NCBI GenBank assembly: GCA_947449255.1
Contig: CANFQX010000003.1
Span: 186,001-250,000, forward strand
Source of the DNA: Pseudobdellovibrionaceae bacterium
Lineage (GTDB): Bacteria; Bdellovibrionota; Bdellovibrionia; Bdellovibrionales; Bdellovibrionaceae
Reading direction: 5' to 3'
DNA: 64,000 nt
Shown here: positions 45,732 to 55,738 of the stretch, piece by piece
How the letters are laid out: every line of letters starts with the position of its first letter
Numbering within the stretch: position 1 is the stretch's first letter
Position numbers and translations under genes: made by a program
Notes under the pieces: generated by a model
Seen by the model: the letters and a program-made list of their open reading frames with translations, nothing else
What the model was told of the DNA's origin: nothing
Databases searched by the model: none

Positions 45732-46145
45732 ATGAAATTCATTTTTATTGTGCTAGTGGCCACTGGTTTTTCTGTTTTTGCTTATTCTGTCACCAAAGAA
45801 GAAGTGCAGAAAAAAAGCACGGAGGCTGCCTCGGCAGCGGTTGAGTACAGCAAGGAACAAAAAGAGCAATTTCAAAAAGAGATGGGATCAAAGCTGGATG
45901 AGCTCACTTCTGAAGTCAGGGAATTAAAGCAAAAAGCAATCCAAACAACTGGCGATGCGCAAAAGCAGTTGAGCGAACAAATAGCCCTGCTTGAGAAAAA
46001 AGAAAATGAACTTAAAAAGGATTTAGCTTCTTTAAGCAAAAGCACGGGAAAAGGTTGGGAGCAGATGAAGTCCGGGGTGAACAAGGCTTGGGATTCATTG
46101 TCTGATTCCTATCAAAAGGCCAAAAAAGAATTTAAGAAAGACTAG
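45732..46145 (+). CDS. secreted coiled-coil stress-type protein
   Basis: A 137-residue protein with a signal peptide (MKFIFIVLVATGFSVFAYS) followed by an almost wholly helical, Lys/Glu/Gln-rich coiled coil (KEQFQKEMGSKLDELTSEVRELKQKAIQ, QLSEQIALLEKKENELKKDL). It ends with an amphipathic WEQMKSGVNKAWDSLSDSYQKAKKEF helix like those of apolipoprotein-like or Sll1863-type stress proteins. A role in membrane or envelope protection is a guess. AAGGAGAG precedes the start. Confidence 0.75.
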   Translation: MKFIFIVLVATGFSVFAYSVTKEEVQKKSTEAASAAVEYSKEQKEQFQKEMGSKLDELTSEVRELKQKAIQTTGDAQKQLSEQIALLEKKENELKKDLASLSKSTGKGWEQMKSGVNKAWDSLSDSYQKAKKEFKKD

Positions 46146-46244: not shown

Positions 46245-46628
46245 ATGAAAAATTTGAAAAAATCAGCCTTAGTGTTGTTCTTGTTATTTCCTTTGTTTTC
46301 ACAAGCTCGAATCACAGATGGTAAAGACCATCTGAAGTTGTCTAAAAACAAGATTTCAGTCGTCCTTGATAAAGGTTTTCATTTTGTGATGCAATCTCCA
46401 GCAGGGCTTTACATGGATGGAGAGCTGGGCTCGATAGAGCCCCTCAAAAAAACTGAAAAACAAATGGTCTTTGATGTCAGTCATGTTCAAGATAAATCCT
46501 TCACTGTCAGCTATTATGTCTGTGATGATCAAAAAACGGTCTGTGAATCCCATGAGTCCCATTTGAAGTTGGTCAAAGGGAAAATGGTTACAGTGGTTGA
46601 TTCAGAAACTAATCCCAAAGAAAAATAG
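46245..46628 (+). CDS. small secreted protein with a cysteine pair
   Basis: The 127-residue product starts at ATG 46245, which gives a clean signal peptide (MKNLKKSALVLFLLFPLFSQA). The mature part is beta-rich (DKGFHFVMQSPAGLYMDGELGSI) and contains VSYYVCDDQKTVCESHE, whose two cysteines are likely oxidised in the periplasm. The pattern of aromatic residues followed by C...C resembles the N-terminal domain of DsbD-like proteins, without enough match to name it. The ribosome binding site is weak. A palindromic terminator lies about 170 bases downstream. Confidence 0.65.
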   Translation: MKNLKKSALVLFLLFPLFSQARITDGKDHLKLSKNKISVVLDKGFHFVMQSPAGLYMDGELGSIEPLKKTEKQMVFDVSHVQDKSFTVSYYVCDDQKTVCESHESHLKLVKGKMVTVVDSETNPKEK

Positions 46629-46948
46629 ACGAATTTTTTGTTTGAAACGACAAATTGATGAGCTCCGTCATGCCCTTTTCTAAATTTTCTATTTTTTAAT
46701 TTTTTTGGCAGTAAATTTTTTGTACACAGGTCTTTGATCTTTTTTTCGAACTTGTTTCATTCTAAGAATATCAAAAAATAAAAATAAAATATCCAAATCT
46801 AAAGAACTGCGGCCGCAGTTCTTTTCTTTTTCATTACAAAAAAAAGCATACTTCAGCTTTCAGAATCTTGATAAAAAAATCATGGCATCGCGGATTTCAA
46901 CTTTTCGTTGAGTCTTAAACACCGAAACGGATTTCGGAGGAGATTACT
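46629..46948. other. 320-base gap holding a terminator and the next operon's promoter region
   Basis: It contains the palindromic terminator at 46801-46825 and a CCGAAA/TTTCGG hairpin at 46922-46937. The second arm of that hairpin overlaps the GGAGGAG ribosome binding site of the next gene. No gene seen. Confidence 0.5.
46801..46825 (+). terminator. perfect palindromic terminator
   Basis: AAAGAACTGCGG pairs with CCGCAGTTCTTT with no unpaired loop beyond the central CGGCCG, and T-rich sequence (TTCTTTTT) follows. It separates the small Cys protein gene from the secreted-protein operon. Confidence 0.75.
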
Positions 46949-47491
46949 ATGAATTTAGGTAAAGCTATCATTTTGCTGGCATTCTGTTTTGGAGGGCTAC
47001 AATCCAAGGCAGGCGAATTTGACAAGGGCTCTACGGAGTTTGATACACCTCAAGTTCCAAATTATTCTGAAGCTGAGGTTCAGAAGCAAATTCAAAATGA
47101 AATGGCCATAGCCTGCTCTGGCAATCTTTGTAAAATCGCTGGCCAGGATAGTCATGGGTCTGGATGGACTGTTTCATTTCAAGTGGGCTATGGAGGCAAC
47201 AACAACAACGGCAATGGAATGGGAACTGGAGGAATGATTTATATTGGTGGTAATAACAATAACAACAATAAAGGTTATGCCAGCGTTTCGGTCAGCTATA
47301 AAACCTTTCAATGTCACTCAAACTTATTAGTCACCCCCGCAGTCTATCGGTTCGTGAATACGTATTTGTACAATATGGTGAATTCTGATGGTTCAGTGAA
47401 AAGAAATTTTTCTCCAGCAGATCAAACAGTCATTTTATTTTATACGACTATGTTAAACAAAGTTGATGCCTGCGCTGGCGGGATGAGATAG
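46949..47491 (+). CDS. secreted Gly/Asn-rich protein, first gene of the secreted-protein operon
   Basis: A 180-residue protein with a signal peptide (MNLGKAIILLAFCFGGLQSKA). A polar segment with a cysteine pair follows (AIACSGNLCKIAG), then two Asn-rich runs (GGNNNNGNGMG and GGNNNNNNKG) inside strand-like sequence (TVSFQVGYG, GMIYIGG, ASVSVSYKTFQCHS), and a helical C terminus with a last cysteine. The Gly/Asn runs look like loops in a beta-structure such as a surface or amyloid-like protein. GGAGGAG lies eight bases upstream. Two bases separate it from the next gene. No family recognised. Confidence 0.7.
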   Translation: MNLGKAIILLAFCFGGLQSKAGEFDKGSTEFDTPQVPNYSEAEVQKQIQNEMAIACSGNLCKIAGQDSHGSGWTVSFQVGYGGNNNNGNGMGTGGMIYIGGNNNNNNKGYASVSVSYKTFQCHSNLLVTPAVYRFVNTYLYNMVNSDGSVKRNFSPADQTVILFYTTMLNKVDACAGGMR

Positions 47492-47493
47492 AT

Positions 47494-50049
47494 ATGTTTA
47501 AAATCCTGCAATATACCAATCAAAGATTCCATAAATTCGCAAATATAAATTTTATTAAATGGATGTTGGGTCTTTGTTGCCTCTGCAATCTGGGTTTGGC
47601 TCAGGCCGAGTCTGAGATTCTGAGTGTTGAAAGCCCAAAGTCTGCAAAGACGGACAGCCCAAAAACAAACAACCAGCCTTCGCTGAATACTTTGAAATTC
47701 ACAAATCGAGCGCAATGTGCGCTGGATTCAGAGCTCCCAACGGATTCAGCTTTTATGGTTATTGATGGGTATAATGCAGGAAAGCTTTCGTATAATTTAG
47801 CAAAAAGCGTGGGACTGGATACCGAAGCCACCAGTGCCAAAGGAATGAAAGAGTTCCGAATTTCTGTGACAAGAATGGCCACTGAAATCATGAATAAAGT
47901 ATTGGCCGGATCCCTTCCTTTGCTGCCCTTGAATCTAAAGAATTCAAAGCTCTATAAATATAACAATCTGGTGACCCTTTGTTCAAAAAAGACCTACTGT
48001 CCTGAATTGAACACTTACCTTGCAAAGTTGTGGGAAAATTCAGAAGGGGCCGGAGTTCCTTGGGAAAAAATTGATAGCTTTACAGGAGCGCATTTTTCGA
48101 ACTTGAAAAAAGCTCAGCGCGTGTCTTGCATGTATGTCAAAAAGTTTTCACCCTTGCAAGAGCATCTGCATACAACAGTGATCAACCAAGTGGCTTTAAC
48201 AGAAATGGCCCAAGCCTTTTTGGACAAAGAAAAATACATCACATCTTGCGACAATATTGATGACAGCTTAGATTCCAGAAATTCGATCATTCAATTTGAT
48301 TTAAAATTTGATAAAAATGAAGATTTTAAAAAGTTGGGCTTCGATTTTTGGAACAGTGTTAAAATCTATCTTTCTTTTGCGTGGCGCTACACAGACATTG
48401 CCTCAAAAGTCTCTCCAGAGCTTGGGCAATTATTTAAGTCCATTGCTTTAGAAGAATCATTAATGATGATGCCCAATGGCTGTAAAAGCATTGAGATGCC
48501 ATCTTGTGACGCAGAAACCTTGTCGATGAACAGTCTTCGCGAATTGGCAAAACCAGACGGGTTTAAGGCGGAGCCAGGCAAGAATATTCCTGAGGGCCCA
48601 GAGTCCAGTGTCATTAAAAATGGACCCCGATCCGTCAATAACGATTTTTTGGGAACCAGAGGATATAAAGATGCCTCTGAGTGGGTCAGTAATTTTAGAA
48701 AAAACTTTATTCAAATTCGGGGCTCACTCAAAAACAGAGCGCAAAGTTCGATTCAATTTATGAATGTGTTGTCGTCATCCATGACCGGCACAGAGCTTGC
48801 GGACTATGTCAGGCCACTGGCTTTTTCAAAAAGTTACACAAATCCTCATCGCGATGAATTGTATTATCTTTGCACTGAGGCCAGGCTTGCTGGTGACAAA
48901 CGTATCGATTTTATGAAGTCAGGAATTGATAAAATTAAAGACATGGCAGTCATGCAAAAGGTTTTCGAGGGCTCTAAGAAATCCCTTTATGAATTGACCA
49001 ACTACTTTGATACAGCGACATCCGCAGTTCTTACGATGTGTGATGTTTTAGAAAAACAAAAAATTTGGAGTCAGGGAAGTTATCAAGTCAATCGCAATGG
49101 TTTTAGTCCCTGGGCAAGAGAATTGCTAAATATTCCTTCAGCAGCGGGGGCTGTGCCCGAAGTTCAACCAGTGTCTTTTGGTGCGCCACTTTTGGTTTGG
49201 GACGCCACACGAAGCAACGAGGAGGGCAATGTGATCTGTCAGTCGGGTCTTGATTGTGTTCGTAAGCTGACTAAATCCATGGTGGATCTCTATGCCGTGG
49301 CCAAATATGCGGAAGCTTATTTGCCAGTGACTTCCACGGTGACGACACCAGACGTTTTCAATCCCTATGCGGAACTGAAAGCCTGTAAGGTCTACGACCC
49401 TTGGTTTTATACGAGAAGGGCCAATAAGCGTCTTTTTAGTGATCTAGTGAACACGGCTCTTTTTGGTTGGAATTTTGTGCCCATCTACGTTGACATTGAT
49501 TTTAAACCACCTCATGTGACCAGTTTAAATCAGCTCATTAAGAATGGAATTGTGAAGTTTGATCCCAAGGTCGAACCAGAAAAAATGGAAGCGTCTTTGT
49601 TGGCAGATCTTGGACCATTGATTGGGGCTCCCTGTGCTATTTCGATTGCGCCCAACAGTGGCAAGGTCTTTAATTTTTATGCCTTCAATGGAATTTCACT
49701 GAATTACTGCAATGAGAAATCTGCGGGAACCTCAGTGGGTGAATCCAATGGGTCCGTGAATAATCCTACACCGAAAAGTCATGCCTATTGTGGAGGTTGT
49801 TCAATCAATTTTATTGGGGTGGCTTCAGGAGTCGCTATGACTTCAAGTATGACTTTTAATCCCATCAAGCTTGGAATCTATTTATTTAGGTCTGTGTATC
49901 GTTTCATGGATGCCAAATCGGACAATGTGAATATTCCCCTCACTCGGGAAGTGGATTTAAATAAAGTTGCTAAAGTCTATAAAGAGTACGGGGGAATTCC
50001 GAAGAAATGTATGGATTCTTTAGCCCTAGGTGATGGATGTGAATTATGA
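47494..50049 (+). CDS. large secreted protein (851 aa), unknown function
   Basis: The signal peptide has a long basic n-region (FIKWMLGLCCLCNLGLAQA). The mature part of about 810 residues is mostly helical in the first two thirds, with scattered cysteines (LVTLCSKKTYCPELN, RVSCMYVKK, YITSCDNI, NGCKSIEMPSCDAE, VICQSGLDCVRKL). The last 200 residues include a glycine-rich stretch, YCGGCSINFIG and a final CMDSLALGDGCEL. No transmembrane helix or enzyme motif is seen. Length and cysteine content suggest a large disulfide-bonded envelope or extracellular component. It is coupled at both ends: two bases from the previous gene and a four-base overlap with the next. Confidence 0.75.
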   Translation: MFKILQYTNQRFHKFANINFIKWMLGLCCLCNLGLAQAESEILSVESPKSAKTDSPKTNNQPSLNTLKFTNRAQCALDSELPTDSAFMVIDGYNAGKLSYNLAKSVGLDTEATSAKGMKEFRISVTRMATEIMNKVLAGSLPLLPLNLKNSKLYKYNNLVTLCSKKTYCPELNTYLAKLWENSEGAGVPWEKIDSFTGAHFSNLKKAQRVSCMYVKKFSPLQEHLHTTVINQVALTEMAQAFLDKEKYITSCDNIDDSLDSRNSIIQFDLKFDKNEDFKKLGFDFWNSVKIYLSFAWRYTDIASKVSPELGQLFKSIALEESLMMMPNGCKSIEMPSCDAETLSMNSLRELAKPDGFKAEPGKNIPEGPESSVIKNGPRSVNNDFLGTRGYKDASEWVSNFRKNFIQIRGSLKNRAQSSIQFMNVLSSSMTGTELADYVRPLAFSKSYTNPHRDELYYLCTEARLAGDKRIDFMKSGIDKIKDMAVMQKVFEGSKKSLYELTNYFDTATSAVLTMCDVLEKQKIWSQGSYQVNRNGFSPWARELLNIPSAAGAVPEVQPVSFGAPLLVWDATRSNEEGNVICQSGLDCVRKLTKSMVDLYAVAKYAEAYLPVTSTVTTPDVFNPYAELKACKVYDPWFYTRRANKRLFSDLVNTALFGWNFVPIYVDIDFKPPHVTSLNQLIKNGIVKFDPKVEPEKMEASLLADLGPLIGAPCAISIAPNSGKVFNFYAFNGISLNYCNEKSAGTSVGESNGSVNNPTPKSHAYCGGCSINFIGVASGVAMTSSMTFNPIKLGIYLFRSVYRFMDAKSDNVNIPLTREVDLNKVAKVYKEYGGIPKKCMDSLALGDGCEL

Positions 50050-50666
50050 ATAAAGTAATCAGGATGATTGTTTTTCTCTTTGTGGTTTCAGCCTATTTTT
50101 ATCAGAGCACAGCGCAAGCCTTCATCGTCACGGGTGGATACAAGCAATTTCAAAATGGCAGCTATTCAAGAACAACCAAAGTGACTTGCGAACCCGATGA
50201 TGTTGAATCTTGTAAAATGCTTTGTGCTCAAGAAAATGAATGTGAGCGGGTTGAACCCTTTTGTCGAAACTGTGCAGGGACAGCCTCTTCATTGCTCAGA
50301 CAGCTTTTTACCGAAATTTCAAAAGTTTATAAAATTAAAAGTGAGCTGACGGTAAGTTCCGTATTAATTCAATATCTGAAATATGATCTTTACGTGCTTT
50401 TGGATGTGAAAAGTATTTTTGATTATTACCACTCTGCTGATTCAGGACTTTTTATTGAAGAACTTAAAAAATTCTGCGGTGAGGGTGCTGAAAGTTCCTT
50501 GTTGGCGGTGACTTTAGATGTGGTCAATCAGCCCAAAGAACTAAAATATGTTCTCTGCCAGGATCCTTCAAGGGGGACTCAGACGCGAGCTTTAGAGGTG
50601 GAAACTCGGTTCCCAGGATTGTTTCCTGTTAAACTTCAGACCCCAATTTACTTTCGATCCCATTGA
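50046..50666 (+). CDS. secreted Cys-rich protein, operon gene 3
   Basis: A 206-residue protein with a signal peptide (MIVFLFVVSAYFYQSTAQA). The mature N terminus has a dense cysteine cluster: VTCEPDDVESCKMLCAQENECERVEPFCRNCAG, six cysteines in about 30 residues, which resembles a knotted module. It is followed by a helical part and a Cys-containing tail (FCGEGAESS, YVLCQDP). It overlaps the 851-aa gene by four bases. No family recognised. Confidence 0.7.
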   Translation: MNKVIRMIVFLFVVSAYFYQSTAQAFIVTGGYKQFQNGSYSRTTKVTCEPDDVESCKMLCAQENECERVEPFCRNCAGTASSLLRQLFTEISKVYKIKSELTVSSVLIQYLKYDLYVLLDVKSIFDYYHSADSGLFIEELKKFCGEGAESSLLAVTLDVVNQPKELKYVLCQDPSRGTQTRALEVETRFPGLFPVKLQTPIYFRSH

Positions 50667-50751
50667 GTCGAAATGAATTTGTATTTTTAGCGGAATTGCA
50701 AAATTTGATATTTAAAAAGTGAAGCAAAATGTTCAACTTAGTTTTCCAAGG

Positions 50752-50772
50752 AACATTCCAGAGAATGTTTTT
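50752..50772 (+). other. hairpin with T-run between operon genes 3 and 4
   Basis: AACATTC and GAATGTT flank a four-base loop and five T follow. This is a weak terminator or attenuator 46 bases before the gene at 50818. It could lower or separate expression of the second half of the operon. Confidence 0.5.
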
Positions 50773-50817
50773 GGAAGTGGAACGAAATAACCTCCCTTAA
50801 ATGGGAAAGGAGACAAC

Positions 50818-51897
50818 ATGAAGAATGTAATTCAGAAAGCCGCGGCAGTCCTGACTGCATTGGCGACTGTAGCAATCACTCAACAAGCAGGCGCCATTGG
50901 CGTCACGTTTAACTTTAGGGTGAACAGCTCAGGGCCAAGCATTTATCCCTGTAATGCGGGTCTTTTAACTCCCAATGACAACCCTAAGGTTTGTTATATT
51001 GCGGGAACAACGACAAGATGTACGCCCACTTGCGTAGGCGACACTTGTACTCCTCAACCACCACCACCGCCTCCACCAGCTTTGTTTGGAATGTCCCTGG
51101 CTGGTGCGCCACCACCACCTCCTCCAACAAATCCTCCTGAGAACAGTTGCGTTTGTACAACGACTCAGGGTGATAGCTATGCCAATTATTTCGATGCTTC
51201 TTATCATAATTGGGATGAAACTGGCGATCCAACAATGCAAGTGGCTTCAGGTATTGATTCATTCAATAAATTATTTAATGAACCTACTGCCTACGGCAAA
51301 ACTTTGCAAAATCTGACAATCAATTTGGGCAATGAATTGTACAATGCTCAATATTTTGTCGATATTTGTTATCGCGCACCACAGATTGATTACAGAGGGA
51401 TCGACACTTCATGGGATCTTTATGGAAAAGTCAGTGTGACTGATTTCGGTTATCAAAATGGCAGCAGTGGTTATAAAACATTGTCGGATCTTCATGCAAA
51501 AGCTTATGTCATTTGTGATTTACAAAAAGACACTTGCCCAACATGTAACGATGCTGACCCTGTGACAGACACAAGTGCAGCTATATTCAATGAAGGCACG
51601 GACTTCTTGAAGGCCACTGGATCTGGAGCTGCAAGATATGATTTCTCTTACCAAACTGGAGCGATCACTTCATTGCCAAGCTCTTTGACAGAAGTGTTCA
51701 ACATTCAAGATGCTTTCAAGAACCTGGGCAAAAGTGCGCCACGTTTTTGTAAAGTGCGCTATGTGTTTTCAGAAAACAATGGTTTGAGTGATCAAACAGC
51801 TATCTTAAGAAAATGGCAAAAACATGGAGCGCAAGTGTGCACATATTCGCAAATTGAAGCGACTGGTATCACACCCCATTTAATGAGCCATAAATAA
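50818..51897 (+). CDS. secreted polyproline-containing protein, paralogue A
   Basis: A 359-residue protein with a signal peptide (VLTALATVAITQQAGA). An N-terminal Cys-bearing strand region (YPCNAGLLTPNDNPKVCYIAG) is followed by CTPTC...CTPQ and two proline runs separated by a short hydrophobic segment. The C-terminal part has NLTINLGNELYNAQYFVDICYRAP, AYVICDLQKDTCPTC and APRFCKVRYVFSE. These blocks recur in the same order in the protein encoded at 53527-54414 (CNAGLIHP, FSLGSEQYGAKYFVQFCYQGP, YQCDLRS, VPRYCVITLLFTE), so the two are paralogues that differ by the proline-rich insert. GGAAAGGAG precedes the start. Unrecognised family. Confidence 0.8.
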   Translation: MKNVIQKAAAVLTALATVAITQQAGAIGVTFNFRVNSSGPSIYPCNAGLLTPNDNPKVCYIAGTTTRCTPTCVGDTCTPQPPPPPPPALFGMSLAGAPPPPPPTNPPENSCVCTTTQGDSYANYFDASYHNWDETGDPTMQVASGIDSFNKLFNEPTAYGKTLQNLTINLGNELYNAQYFVDICYRAPQIDYRGIDTSWDLYGKVSVTDFGYQNGSSGYKTLSDLHAKAYVICDLQKDTCPTCNDADPVTDTSAAIFNEGTDFLKATGSGAARYDFSYQTGAITSLPSSLTEVFNIQDAFKNLGKSAPRFCKVRYVFSENNGLSDQTAILRKWQKHGAQVCTYSQIEATGITPHLMSHK

Positions 51898-51937
51898 AGT
51901 TTTCAAATAAAGAGAAACAGGGAAGGATTTTGGAATC

Positions 51938-53527
51938 ATGAAACGGATATATGTTTTAAAAGGAAGAGGTTTTTTTCTGATTCTCTTGGGACTTTTCATG
52001 GGGGTGCTTGTTGCCCCCATGATCTCCTTAGCGCTTTGTATCATGGGCGAAGATGGAAAAATGCAATTGTTTTTATCGCCAGAAAACAAAACCTGGGGAA
52101 ATTTTTCTGGAAAAGAAGATGTTTTTCCCAGCACGGTTTCAAGATGCAAAGAAGATGCATCTCGCTACCTGATGCTCACTCTTGGGGTCGCCAGGTCCGG
52201 CAAGCAGTCGAATTTAAAAGAAGTTTATATTTTTGATAACTACAAGCCTGAAAAATGCGAGCTTAAAAATTCTCTTTCCATCTTGGGCATGATGGAGCCC
52301 TTAGCGCAAGAGCATTTTTCGCAACAATATAAACTGCTCAGATCTTGTTTTGAACTGAAGGTGGATGATATCAATGGTCTGCCACTGGTCTTTAAAGAAA
52401 ATCAAGAGCATTGTCAGATTAAGAAATCACCAGAAGGTGGAGTCACCTTGAATGGTGATCTGTGTTTTTTAAAGATTTCTTCGCGAAGTCAGTTTGCCAT
52501 TTTACCTGTGATAAAAAATGAATGTCGAGACGCTGACTATTTAAAAAAACTTGGACTGATGCCTCAAGATCTCGAGGCCAGCCTGGATGTTCTTGTCGCT
52601 GGGGATGATACCGGAAACAGCATGGATTTAACTCAAATCGGCTCTCGGCCCATACTGCTGAACGTAGCGCCGCCCTCAAAATTGGCAAAATTATCAGAAG
52701 ATTTTGGACCAGAAATGCCACGCTTTGTGACAGATTACAGCGCCGATGTGGATTGGGGGAAAGTTTCCATTCGTCCAGGGAAAACCACGCAAATCAATCT
52801 TTCTGTTTTGGCCTCAAATATTTCAGATAAAAACTGCCAGGGCGATGATTGTTTTCGCATGTCCAATTATGTCCAGCCCGTTTTTGGCCAGGTCGAAGTT
52901 TTTGAAATGAAAAATAGCAACAAGCCAGTTCTGATTGAAGAATGGTGGGATGGTGGATTTGCGGCAGCCAATTGGCAGGGGTTTGTCACCGGGACAGGCT
53001 ATGCCACCAATGAGGAGTTGTTCACGCCAGGAAAAAAATATCGCATTCAAATGACTTTTCAAAATCCTACAGATGATTTCGAAATTTATTTATCAGGCTT
53101 AAATCAAATTTTGATCAACTTAAGTGCAATGACGGGTGGAGTTGTTGGAATCGATGTCATTCCAGGCCTGCAAACATTGAAGCAATTGGGAGTGTTTCCT
53201 CCATTCATGGGCACCGGGGGTCTCAAAGGTGACGATCAAGGAGTGAACCTAGGTCAAATTATTAAAGGATTGTCGGGAATCATTTCGAGTCATGTTTGGC
53301 CGACTTATTTTGAAAAAGTTTGCGATCCGACCAAGGCCAGCTGCTTAAAATTGGGGAAGCAAAAGTTTTATCAACGCCTCAGTATGGAATTCACAGCCGG
53401 GGAGACAGATATTTCAACAGGCGAGATGTCCCTAGAGGATCTAAATTTACAAAAAGAATCTACAGTTTTTCATAGTTACAATATGACTTCAAAAGCGTTC
53501 CCTGAATTTCGCTGTGGAGGCAATTAA
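51938..53527 (+). CDS. large secreted protein (529 aa), operon gene 5
   Basis: A signal-type hydrophobic segment (GFFLILLGLFMGVLVAPMISLAL) is followed by about 490 residues, largely beta-strand in character (QFAILPVIKNEC, FGQVEVFEMKN, KYRIQMTFQNPTDDFEIYLSG), with about a dozen cysteines. The segment GMMEPLAQEHFSQQYKLLRSC is helical. A central FVTGTGYATNEELFTPGKKY suggests a beta-sandwich carbohydrate- or protein-binding module. No enzyme motif seen. GGAAGG lies about nine bases upstream. Its stop overlaps the next start (TAATG). Confidence 0.7.
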   Translation: MKRIYVLKGRGFFLILLGLFMGVLVAPMISLALCIMGEDGKMQLFLSPENKTWGNFSGKEDVFPSTVSRCKEDASRYLMLTLGVARSGKQSNLKEVYIFDNYKPEKCELKNSLSILGMMEPLAQEHFSQQYKLLRSCFELKVDDINGLPLVFKENQEHCQIKKSPEGGVTLNGDLCFLKISSRSQFAILPVIKNECRDADYLKKLGLMPQDLEASLDVLVAGDDTGNSMDLTQIGSRPILLNVAPPSKLAKLSEDFGPEMPRFVTDYSADVDWGKVSIRPGKTTQINLSVLASNISDKNCQGDDCFRMSNYVQPVFGQVEVFEMKNSNKPVLIEEWWDGGFAAANWQGFVTGTGYATNEELFTPGKKYRIQMTFQNPTDDFEIYLSGLNQILINLSAMTGGVVGIDVIPGLQTLKQLGVFPPFMGTGGLKGDDQGVNLGQIIKGLSGIISSHVWPTYFEKVCDPTKASCLKLGKQKFYQRLSMEFTAGETDISTGEMSLEDLNLQKESTVFHSYNMTSKAFPEFRCGGN

Positions 53528-54414
53528 TGAAAAGATTTATTTTGCCAATAGTCGATTGTGATACAAAAAAAAGGATCATCTTCACTTTGTTTTCCACGGT
53601 CTTGAGCTGTTTAATATTTCCTCACGAAGTCTGGTCTGCCGTGACCATTGCTCCCGTCAGCACAGAGGGACTTTTTATGTGCAATGCGGGGCTTATTCAT
53701 CCAAGGACTGAAACACTTTGTCGAAGTGTTCACACCGGAACAGTCTGTGATCCGAATGCAACGGATTCCATTGACTGCGTTTGCGCCAGTGGAAGTTCAA
53801 TCGGGGATCTCGTTTTAGGAACTATAGTTGAAGTTGCCAAAAGCACTACCAAAGAGGTTCCTGCTGGGGAAACTGCTTATACGTATTTGGTTGATCCTGC
53901 GCTGGCCTTTGATAGTCAAATTACAAATGTTGAATTCAGTCTTGGCAGTGAACAGTATGGTGCAAAATATTTTGTGCAATTTTGTTATCAAGGACCCTAT
54001 GAAGATTTTCAGACCATTCCTAAGGTGGGTCGGGCTGACCTTTCTTTGGGAATTTATAAACTGAAATTTTCCATGACCGCAGCAGACAAGATTTATAATG
54101 CAAAGTTAGAGAGCAATGCCCAGGTGAGTTATCAATGTGATTTAAGAAGTCTTGGTTTGAACACAGCTGCGCGTAAAAATGGCAACACAAAAGGGGACTT
54201 TCCCCTGGAAGTTGATGCTTTCAATCAGGGACCTCTGCCCATTGCTGATGCGACGCCCGGGGCAAGTAGAGAGCTTATTTTAAATCTAAACACAATTCCA
54301 GATCAGGTGCCACGTTACTGTGTTATAACCTTGTTGTTTACGGAGTTGCCTAAGAACATCCGCTCTCTTAAATCAAAAGCCGATTTTTCTGGAACTCTCG
54401 ATATTATACGATAA
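53527..54414 (+). CDS. secreted protein, paralogue B of the polyproline protein
   Basis: A 295-residue protein. A basic start (KRFILPIVDCDTKKRIIF) precedes a hydrophobic segment (TLFSTVLSCLIFPHEVWSA). The mature part shares the ordered blocks of the 50818 protein: LFMCNAGLIHPRTETLC, FSLGSEQYGAKYFVQFCYQGPYEDF, AQVSYQCDLRSLG and VPRYCVITLLFTELP. It lacks the proline runs. The conserved cysteines and strand pattern suggest a shared disulfide-stabilised beta fold that could pair or polymerise with its paralogue. It starts inside the previous stop codon. Last gene of the operon. Confidence 0.8.
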   Translation: MKRFILPIVDCDTKKRIIFTLFSTVLSCLIFPHEVWSAVTIAPVSTEGLFMCNAGLIHPRTETLCRSVHTGTVCDPNATDSIDCVCASGSSIGDLVLGTIVEVAKSTTKEVPAGETAYTYLVDPALAFDSQITNVEFSLGSEQYGAKYFVQFCYQGPYEDFQTIPKVGRADLSLGIYKLKFSMTAADKIYNAKLESNAQVSYQCDLRSLGLNTAARKNGNTKGDFPLEVDAFNQGPLPIADATPGASRELILNLNTIPDQVPRYCVITLLFTELPKNIRSLKSKADFSGTLDIIR

Positions 54415-54490
54415 CGCAGCATTGTTTTTAAAATTTATGCGCAATACGTTATGAAAATAAAAAAGTGATAAGCCCCCGTTGGACAAAGCT

Positions 54491-54520
54491 TTGACATCAG
54501 AGTCGCTTTCCGAACATAGT
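54491..54520 (+). promoter_or_regulatory. possible promoter before crtY
   Basis: TTGACA at 54491 and CATAGT at 54515 are 18 bases apart, ten bases before the preferred crtY ATG. The leader would be very short, so the call is weak. Confidence 0.3.
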
Positions 54521-54529
54521 GGGGTGGTT

Positions 54530-55738
54530 ATGAATACACCGCATTCCGGGGGCATTCCGGCAAAAAAAGTTACGAATAATAATTTTGATATTATTATTGC
54601 TGGCGCAGGGCTTGCGGGCCTCTCTTTGGCCTATAGACTTAAAAATCAGCAGCCCCATATGCGCCTATTGATTTTAGATAAGACCCCAAAGTTGACCGGG
54701 GACAAAACCTGGTCTTTTCATTCTGAAGATATCAAGGATTTGAAACCTTGGCAGGATTTCATCTCCTACTCCTGGCCGAAATATCAGGTCCAATTTTCTT
54801 TTGGACGAACAGTCGACAAAAGCTATTACACAATTTCATCACAGCATTTTTTTTCGAAGATGACAGAAATTTTGGGCGCCGATTTACAATTGGGCAAAAA
54901 GGTCGTTGAGACACAAGCAAATAGTGTTGTGACGGAGGCCGGTGAAATATTTTTTGCTTCCATAGTGATCGATGCCAGACTCAGTCTAAATTCTTCCTTC
55001 ACTGAAGCTAAAAAATTTGCTTGGGGATATCAAAAGTTTTTGGGACTTGAATTGAAAATGCAGGAAAAGCATGGCTTACAAAATCCTATCTTGATGGATG
55101 CCAATGTCGATCAAAAAGATGGCTATCGCTTCATGTATGTCTTGCCCTATTCAGAGGATCAGCTTTTAATCGAAGACACCCACTACAGCAATTCACCTGA
55201 CCTCAATGTAAATGAGTACACGGAAGAGATTCTTAATTATGCTCAAAATAGAGGTTGGAATGTCAGTTCACAGCTGAGATCCGAAATTGGCGTGCTGCCA
55301 ATTCCCACAACAAAGTGGGTTTCAGAATTGGCTGAAAAATCAGCTGTGCTAAAAATAGGATCAGGGGCTGGGTTCTATCATCCAGTCACAGGATATTCTT
55401 TTTTATGGTGCGTGCGGGTGGCTAATGCACTGGCTGAAATTAAAAATCCTTCGTGGGAGACCTATTCAGAGGCGCTGTTAAACCTGCAAAAAGAACTCAA
55501 TAGAAATACTTCATTTTATTTAATGTTGAATAAGCTGCTTTTTTACGGTGCAGACACCAGCAATCGGAAAAATATTTTTCAACGTTTTTACAAATTACCA
55601 GAAAGTACGATTGGCAGATTTTATGCTGCTCATACTTCACTTGCAGATAAATTTCGGATAATGATTGGGCGTCCGCCTATTTCTGTTGTCTCGGCGTGGA
55701 AGGCCCTGCTAAAAAAAGGTGTGAATAATAAGGTATGA
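54530..55738 (+). CDS. crtY: lycopene beta-cyclase, CrtY type
   Basis: FAD/NAD(P)-dependent enzyme that closes the ends of lycopene to give beta-carotene. The N-terminal dinucleotide motif is IIIAGAGLAGLSLAYRL. Family features are GDKTWSFHSEDI, VIDAR, WGYQKFLGLEL, RFMYVLPYSEDQLLIEDTHYS, IGVLPIP and GAGFYHPVTGYSF. 402 residues fits CrtY. The ATG at 54530 has GGGTGG just before it; the frame to 54479 starts with TTG and adds unlikely residues. First gene of the crt operon; its stop overlaps crtE by four bases. Confidence 0.92.
   Translation: MNTPHSGGIPAKKVTNNNFDIIIAGAGLAGLSLAYRLKNQQPHMRLLILDKTPKLTGDKTWSFHSEDIKDLKPWQDFISYSWPKYQVQFSFGRTVDKSYYTISSQHFFSKMTEILGADLQLGKKVVETQANSVVTEAGEIFFASIVIDARLSLNSSFTEAKKFAWGYQKFLGLELKMQEKHGLQNPILMDANVDQKDGYRFMYVLPYSEDQLLIEDTHYSNSPDLNVNEYTEEILNYAQNRGWNVSSQLRSEIGVLPIPTTKWVSELAEKSAVLKIGSGAGFYHPVTGYSFLWCVRVANALAEIKNPSWETYSEALLNLQKELNRNTSFYLMLNKLLFYGADTSNRKNIFQRFYKLPESTIGRFYAAHTSLADKFRIMIGRPPISVVSAWKALLKKGVNNKV

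Follow-up and report, generated by a model that had tools for sequence, protein, structure and literature searches.

In chaperone-usher pili the shaft subunits carry an N-terminal extension and the tip subunits have none, while F-type type IV secretion systems (T4SS) have several exported, cysteine-rich mating-pair proteins (TraN, TraU, and TrbC) that are made together. TasA of the Bacillus subtilis biofilm fibers is a secreted beta-sandwich with a short, hydrophobic strand at the N-terminus of the mature protein, right after signal peptide cleavage, and its residues 28-38 are described as completing the next subunit by donor-strand exchange (PMC9674648). Bd1399 of Bdellovibrio bacteriovorus is described as a secreted, elongated beta-sandwich with conserved disulfides and a link to predation (PMC10792529). 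Here we compare these systems with an operon at positions 46949-54414 of a 64,000-nucleotide stretch of DNA (contig CANFQX010000003.1, positions 186,001 to 250,000; hereafter the window), which sits in a 3.21-Mb Bdellovibrionota genome (G000). The six open reading frames (ORFs), all found where the original prediction from the window sequence had placed them, are termed g1-g6 in order (Table 1), and g7 denotes a secreted, apparently papain-like protein of other loci. We are highly confident that the six genes form one exported module that is inherited as a unit.

Gene content was compared in 68 loci from 63 other genomes, picked because they hold g5 (28 loci) or g2 (40 loci). The g2 gene is carried by 65 of these loci (60 genomes); the three loci without it (L050, L051, and L054) and several of the cases with a missing partner sit at contig ends. 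Of the 65 g2 loci, 63 have g1, 63 have g3, 62 have g5, and 63 have one or more g4-type genes; 40 have at least two g4-type genes, and 20 have g7. With each partner kept in 62-63 of the 65 loci, the conserved synteny within Bdellovibrionota that had been named beforehand as support for a complex was observed. Dispersal of the genes in relatives, set beforehand as the outcome that would speak against one machine, was not seen; the genes stay together, although blocks are reshuffled. As at least two g4-type genes are present in 40 of the 65 loci, g6 is an optional part of the module.

The gene order is g1-g2-g3-g4-g5-g6 in Bdellovibrio and g4-g5-g6-g1-g2-g3 or g4-g5-g1-g2-g3 in Bacteriovoracaceae-type genomes, and inversions were found in others. 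The reshuffled blocks are g1-g2-g3 and g4-g5(-g6), with g2-g3 and g4-g5 adjoining in most loci. The five core proteins have pairwise distances that correlate (r 0.51-0.87, a value to which shared species history also contributes), and in each of the 10 comparisons none of 500 permutations reached r.

The g2 gene was found in 75 of 368 Bdellovibrionota genomes, and g5 in 24 of the 59 genomes searched for it. Two g2 peptide patterns scanned across 84,980 named genomes, a search that could miss distant relatives outside the phylum, identified 23 loci. These belong to Bdellovibrio, Bdellovibrionaceae/Bdellovibrionales, Bacteriovoracaceae/Bacteriovorax, Halobacteriovorax, Oligoflexia, and one "Proteobacteria bacterium" that we take to be the same-family genome G034. 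No relatives of g2 were found in viral contigs or plasmids, and a mobile-element origin was rejected on that ground. B. bacteriovorus strain kdesi (G015) has three g2 genes. The third of them (L061:9905-12673) is an orphan with no other module gene recognized within 22 kb.

All six proteins have an N-terminal hydrophobic export signal, and beyond it no 19-residue window in any of g1-g6 has a mean hydropathy above 1.61. This agrees with the claim that the operon encodes only exported proteins, as nothing after the signal is hydrophobic enough to be clearly transmembrane in any of the six. The proteins g1-g6 contain 5, 21, 8, 13, 12, and 10 cysteines, respectively. Of the 18 invariant cysteines of g2, 16 occur in 65 of 65 sequences and the other two in 59 of 59. 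In g5 seven N-terminal cysteines are kept in 61-62 of 62 sequences. In g1, C61 and C122 are found in 64 of 64, C56 in 63 of 64, and C175 in 58 of 63 sequences, and the cysteines of g3, g1, and g4 show a conservation comparable to that of g5, with some exceptions. The conserved cysteines would fit a rigid structure within an oxidizing compartment. The window g2 (stop region 50020-50049) ends about 60 amino acids (aa) before most Bdellovibrio homologues and has lost a conserved, cysteine-containing tail; among the Bacteriovoracaceae-type g2 genes, several are likewise short. We do not claim g5 as a lipoprotein; a cysteine lies near position +1 of the mature protein, yet only 4 of 62 sequences fit a lipobox.

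None of g1-g6 matched a family above cut-off in searches of Pfam and NCBIfam that also covered two ORFs upstream, and PHROGs and PADLOC gave nothing convincing for the six proteins. Nor did PDB sequences give anything convincing with profiles built for g1-g5, for g7, and for g4 and g6 combined; the best match there, of g3 to a short PAS-domain stretch (E 0.016), was judged to be chance. Among 23 g2 homologues no convincing Pfam match was found, and 76 g4/g6 homologues gave nothing convincing in NCBIfam (one match, E 0.0094). The absence of an enzyme motif from the set was thereby upheld, as these five resources recognized no enzyme family in g1-g6. Nor did they recognize a known pilus, curli, or S-layer system by sequence. 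Signature families of curli, S-layers, and type IV pili subunits were not found above Pfam or NCBIfam cut-off in g1-g6, while secretion partners were not searched genome-wide. Strong structural matches to unrelated known families had been named as evidence against one machine, and AlphaFold models of g2 and g4 gave only weak fold matches. The g2 model, with a predicted local distance difference test score (pLDDT) of 65.4 and a predicted template modeling score (pTM) of 0.45, matched nothing in Foldseek at E<=0.001; its best VIA Z was 6.5.

A literature search, with supplementary tables outside its scope, gave nothing on Bd0748-Bd0753 and nothing for the Bd075 prefix together with Bdellovibrio. 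For the prefixes Bd292-Bd294 it gave Bd2924 alone among Bdellovibrio papers, and tags of the Bd074 prefix occur in PMC11209729, PMC9140294, and PMC6717892. No paper was found that deals with the module genes. The operon is real, as is its conservation, and within the reach of these searches both are undescribed. It was not possible to place any of the six families, and each known system tested failed in a defining feature.

The paralogy of g4 and g6 was confirmed (hhalign probability 99.9, E 3.9e-35). The polyproline tract is present in g4 and not in the g6 of the window. Profile comparisons of g4 with g5, g1 with g4, g3 with g2, and g5 with g2 gave no relation, the match between g1 and g4 being confined to the signal peptides. 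The first gene does not encode an Asn/Gly-repeat protein as proposed, since the stretch in question is a variable loop and shows no repeat architecture. The second g4-type protein (398-477 aa) of the Bacteriovoracaceae-type loci L118, L119, L120, L121, L133, L136, L138, and L141 was found to have an extra N-terminal Cys/His-rich region before Y-x-C-N-A-G. The second g4-type copies of L118, L123, L133, and L136 had no match in Pfam.

Directly after the AxA signal-peptide site, g4 has a stretch in which hydrophobic and polar residues alternate. Counted back from the SSG motif, positions -10, -8, -6, -4, and -2 are hydrophobic in 59, 55, 62, 59, and 51 of 62 g4 proteins, and the four positions in between in 0, 2, 0, and 0 of 62. 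The 62 proteins come from 69 sources (the 68 loci and the window), seven of which were dropped because g4 was truncated, broken, or missing; only proteins with an SSG-like motif ahead of Y-x-C were selected, and L122 deviates from the usual motif. For strict alternation this stretch ranks first of 1,640 nine-residue windows over g1-g5. The second, g6-type copies do not have the pattern. In an AlphaFold monomer of g4 (alignment of 76 sequences; pLDDT 75.6, pTM 0.74) the fold is beta-rich and the first strand is at residues 41-50, with none at residues 20-40. A conserved, alternating strand that is left without a partner at the N-terminus of the mature protein has, as far as the model can be trusted, the anatomy of a donor strand.

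The g4/g6 pair resembles the shaft and tip subunits of chaperone-usher pili in that only one paralogue has the putative extension. The position of the putative g4 strand, right after signal peptide cleavage, is that of the TasA strand. The two best Foldseek matches of the g4 model were Bd1399 (PDB 8OKH; E 5.8e-3) and the TasA fiber (E 2.2e-2). The VIA-align alignment of g4 with TasA (Z 4.7, 156 residues, root-mean-square deviation 4.7) starts with model residue 37 on TasA residue 43, just past the TasA donor strand. The fold match to TasA is nevertheless weak and there is no sequence relation; unlike TasA, g4 is rich in cysteine and encoded together with five other proteins. Bd1399, which was likewise a weak match, is described singly and not within such a set.

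We somewhat favor the interpretation that the module forms an exported, disulfide-braced assembly on the cell surface or extracellularly, most likely on or outside the outer membrane. Cleavage of the signal peptide would then expose a free N-terminal beta strand of g4, which would enter the next subunit, be it g4, g6, or another partner, and fill its incomplete beta-sandwich. Since g6 is without the strand it could accept but not donate, and it may cap or tip the chain. The large g2 and g5 may be scaffold, anchor, or assembly factors, g1 and g3 may be accessory parts, and a likely use would be prey contact or surface coating. The g4 donor-strand joint itself is put forward tentatively, as somewhat short of an even chance. 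If proved, it would work like known donor-strand fibers and yet not be one of them. Taken together as a secreted, multi-subunit, disulfide-locked surface assembly of Bdellovibrionota, of a class not described before and devoid of usher and PapD, in which g4 donates the strand, g6-type proteins form caps or variable tips, a hydrolase is sometimes added, and prey contact is the purpose, the full picture is doubtful.

Several observations weigh against such a surface assembly. The families of the usher (PF00577), the PapD-type chaperone (PF00345), and TasA/camelysin (PF12389) had 0 matches in the genome of the window, with positive controls in Escherichia coli for the first two and in B. subtilis for the third; assembly would therefore have to proceed in another way, perhaps by means of g5 or g2. 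No outer-membrane exporter was found in the operon, and there is only one g4 gene per operon. No Foldseek match of g4 reached E<=0.001, and the VIA Z of 4.7, obtained with Bd1399 as well as TasA, was tied with many unrelated beta-sandwiches, in a range that the tool calls common. The g4 strand could also pair within its own chain and have been overlooked by a middling model, which would undo the argument. Furthermore, g2 was absent from 7 of 23 same-genus relatives and from G025, and the module is therefore not required by every Bdellovibrio. The literature search gave no expression, localization, or mutant data for the module genes.

Part of this evidence would suit a complex that belongs to the envelope of the predator itself, in the periplasm or bound to the outer membrane, and serves transport, assembly, or protection without any fiber. 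The g4 strand would then have g5 or g2 as its partner within a fixed complex. We regard this as unlikely, if still a serious contender. The proteins come with no exporter beyond their signal peptides, g2-g5 are present in one copy each, the g4-g5 neighborhood is kept in most loci, and the 18 invariant cysteines of g2 indicate an oxidizing compartment without pointing to a location outside the cell. The patchy presence within the genus and the up to three g2 copies in one genome, however, suit a surface or interaction role better than envelope housekeeping.

That the six proteins are a secreted predatory package, which carries or docks hydrolases onto or into prey, is rather unlikely, and here the difference between two types of operon matters. 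The window groups with L030-L039 in the g2 tree (type A), and these loci end at g6 or earlier. In type B (L040-L049 and L052) g7 follows g6 as a seventh gene. The g7 protein (about 400 aa, secreted) has the look of a papain-like, putative enzyme, with Asp63-Cys64 and His166 invariant in 13 sequences, and it also adjoins the module on several other branches, which together gives the 20 of 65 loci mentioned above. In addition, a Trypsin_2 protein (L077:13735-14853; E 1.6e-7) was found between g3 and a g4-type gene in another lineage. L079, L124, and L126 have unassigned ORFs of similar size at that position. However, g7 had no Pfam match at cut-off and no PDB sequence match, and it was absent from the window operon and from the type A loci examined, of which L038 and L039 stop at contig ends. 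The g7 family has 2-10 matches per Bdellovibrio genome, some of which are two pieces of one gene, and most lie away from the module; in G000 the relatives are on contigs C23, C1, and C4. The link between g7 and the module is therefore not obligatory.

The genomic setting in B. bacteriovorus was also considered in this respect. G005 is taken to be the genome of strain HD100, as neighbor genes agree with published locus tags. Its type B locus has as neighbors, in order, a 408-aa phosphoglucose isomerase (bd0741), an FHA-GGDEF protein (DgcB, Bd0742), and an extracytoplasmic function (ECF) sigma factor (Bd0743), while its type A locus adjoins a 505-aa acyl-CoA dehydrogenase (Bd2924). DgcB is described as a diguanylate cyclase that governs prey invasion, and its need in this process would speak for the predatory package. 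Bd0739, near the type B locus, is listed with deficiencies in attachment, killing, and rounding upon disruption, and it is described as a RomR pole-complex partner. The closeness of type B to dgcB and Bd0739 is no proof of function.

Four type A loci were also found to have large secreted ORFs on the strand of g1, some 200 bp upstream of it, namely L031:14299-17454 (-), L035:1114-3939 (+), L036:15019-17940 (-), and L037:1883-3775 (+). Those of L031 and L036 contain collagen-like repeats of the Gly-Asn-Asn type (Pfam Collagen PF01391; E 1.2e-35 and 4e-29). The match with E 1.2e-35 is the 1051-aa secreted collagen-repeat protein encoded directly upstream of type A in G005, and that with E 4e-29 is its counterpart in G002; at the same position large ORFs are present in G023 and G015. 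The collagen-repeat proteins speak for the surface assembly proposed above.

It is improbable that the module is a known system too divergent to be recognized, be it a chaperone-usher pilus, a TasA-type fiber, DUF4360 surface proteins, or the mating-pair proteins of an F-type T4SS. The beta-sandwich model of g4, whose best, though weak, matches were Bd1399 (DUF4360) and the TasA fiber, is consistent with this, and the exported, cysteine-rich set resembles TraN, TraU, and TrbC, of which TraN and TraU share the many conserved cysteines. On the other hand, no match that counts was found in Pfam, NCBIfam, PHROGs, or PADLOC, none of the Tra/Trb families being above Pfam or NCBIfam cut-off in g1-g6, and the usher, PapD, and TasA families were missing from a genome search in which the controls worked. 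Neither g4 nor g6 matched DUF4360 (PF14273) in Pfam at E<=1, and the two DUF4360 matches of the genome are elsewhere, on contig C11.

A chance neighborhood, or membership of the adjacent carotenoid cluster, to which a crtY-like gene starting 65 bp 3' of the operon on the same strand could point (the carotenoid-type genes there were named by eye from the sequence), is contradicted by the phylum-wide synteny of the module and by the best crtY match in five same-genus genomes that have both crtY and the module (G005, G008, G018, G021, and G023), which lies on a different contig or well away from the module, and was rejected as highly improbable; the ten best crtY relatives outside the genome of the window are 35-42% identical.

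Within the operon the genes are separated by 2 bp (g1-g2), 151 bp (g3-g4), and 40 bp (g4-g5), or overlap by 4 bp (g2-g3) and 1 bp (g5-g6). The description of the genes as coupled therefore holds for g1-g3 and for g4-g6 and not across the 151-bp gap between g3 and g4, which is wide enough that it could hold a separate promoter. A consensus scan of 46500-54700 gave 17 terminator-like sites where 7.6 were expected. A gene upstream of the operon, at 45732-46145 of the window, was assigned to the sll1863 stress-response family (NCBIfam NF052504, E 1.9e-20); its product is exported and 137 aa long.

Table 1. Genes of the module and upstream boundary in the window.
Feature	Position	Strand	Description
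Terminator-like hairpin	46801..46824	+	10 pairs; upstream boundary of the operon; from consensus scan only
g1	46949..47491	+	180 aa, exported; variable Asn/Gly loop; conserved Cys 56, 61, 122, 175
g2	47494..50049	+	851 aa, exported core protein; 18 invariant Cys
g3	50046..50666	+	206 aa, exported Cys-cluster protein; start overlaps g2 stop
g4	50818..51897	+	359 aa, exported, beta-rich; mature N-terminal alternating strand at about 27-35, then SSGPxxYxCNAG; polyproline linker in window copy
g5	51938..53527	+	529 aa, exported; 12 conserved Cys
g6	53527..54414	+	295 aa, exported g4 paralogue without N-terminal alternating strand

Much of the Bdellovibrio genome is unannotated, and the module comprises five core exported proteins that are conserved across the phylum to which the classic bacterial predators belong. 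Two module loci are present in the genome identified as that of the type strain HD100, a tractable laboratory strain, one of them adjoining dgcB. If the proposed assembly is true, it would add an usher-less surface-assembly system to Gram-negative bacteria.

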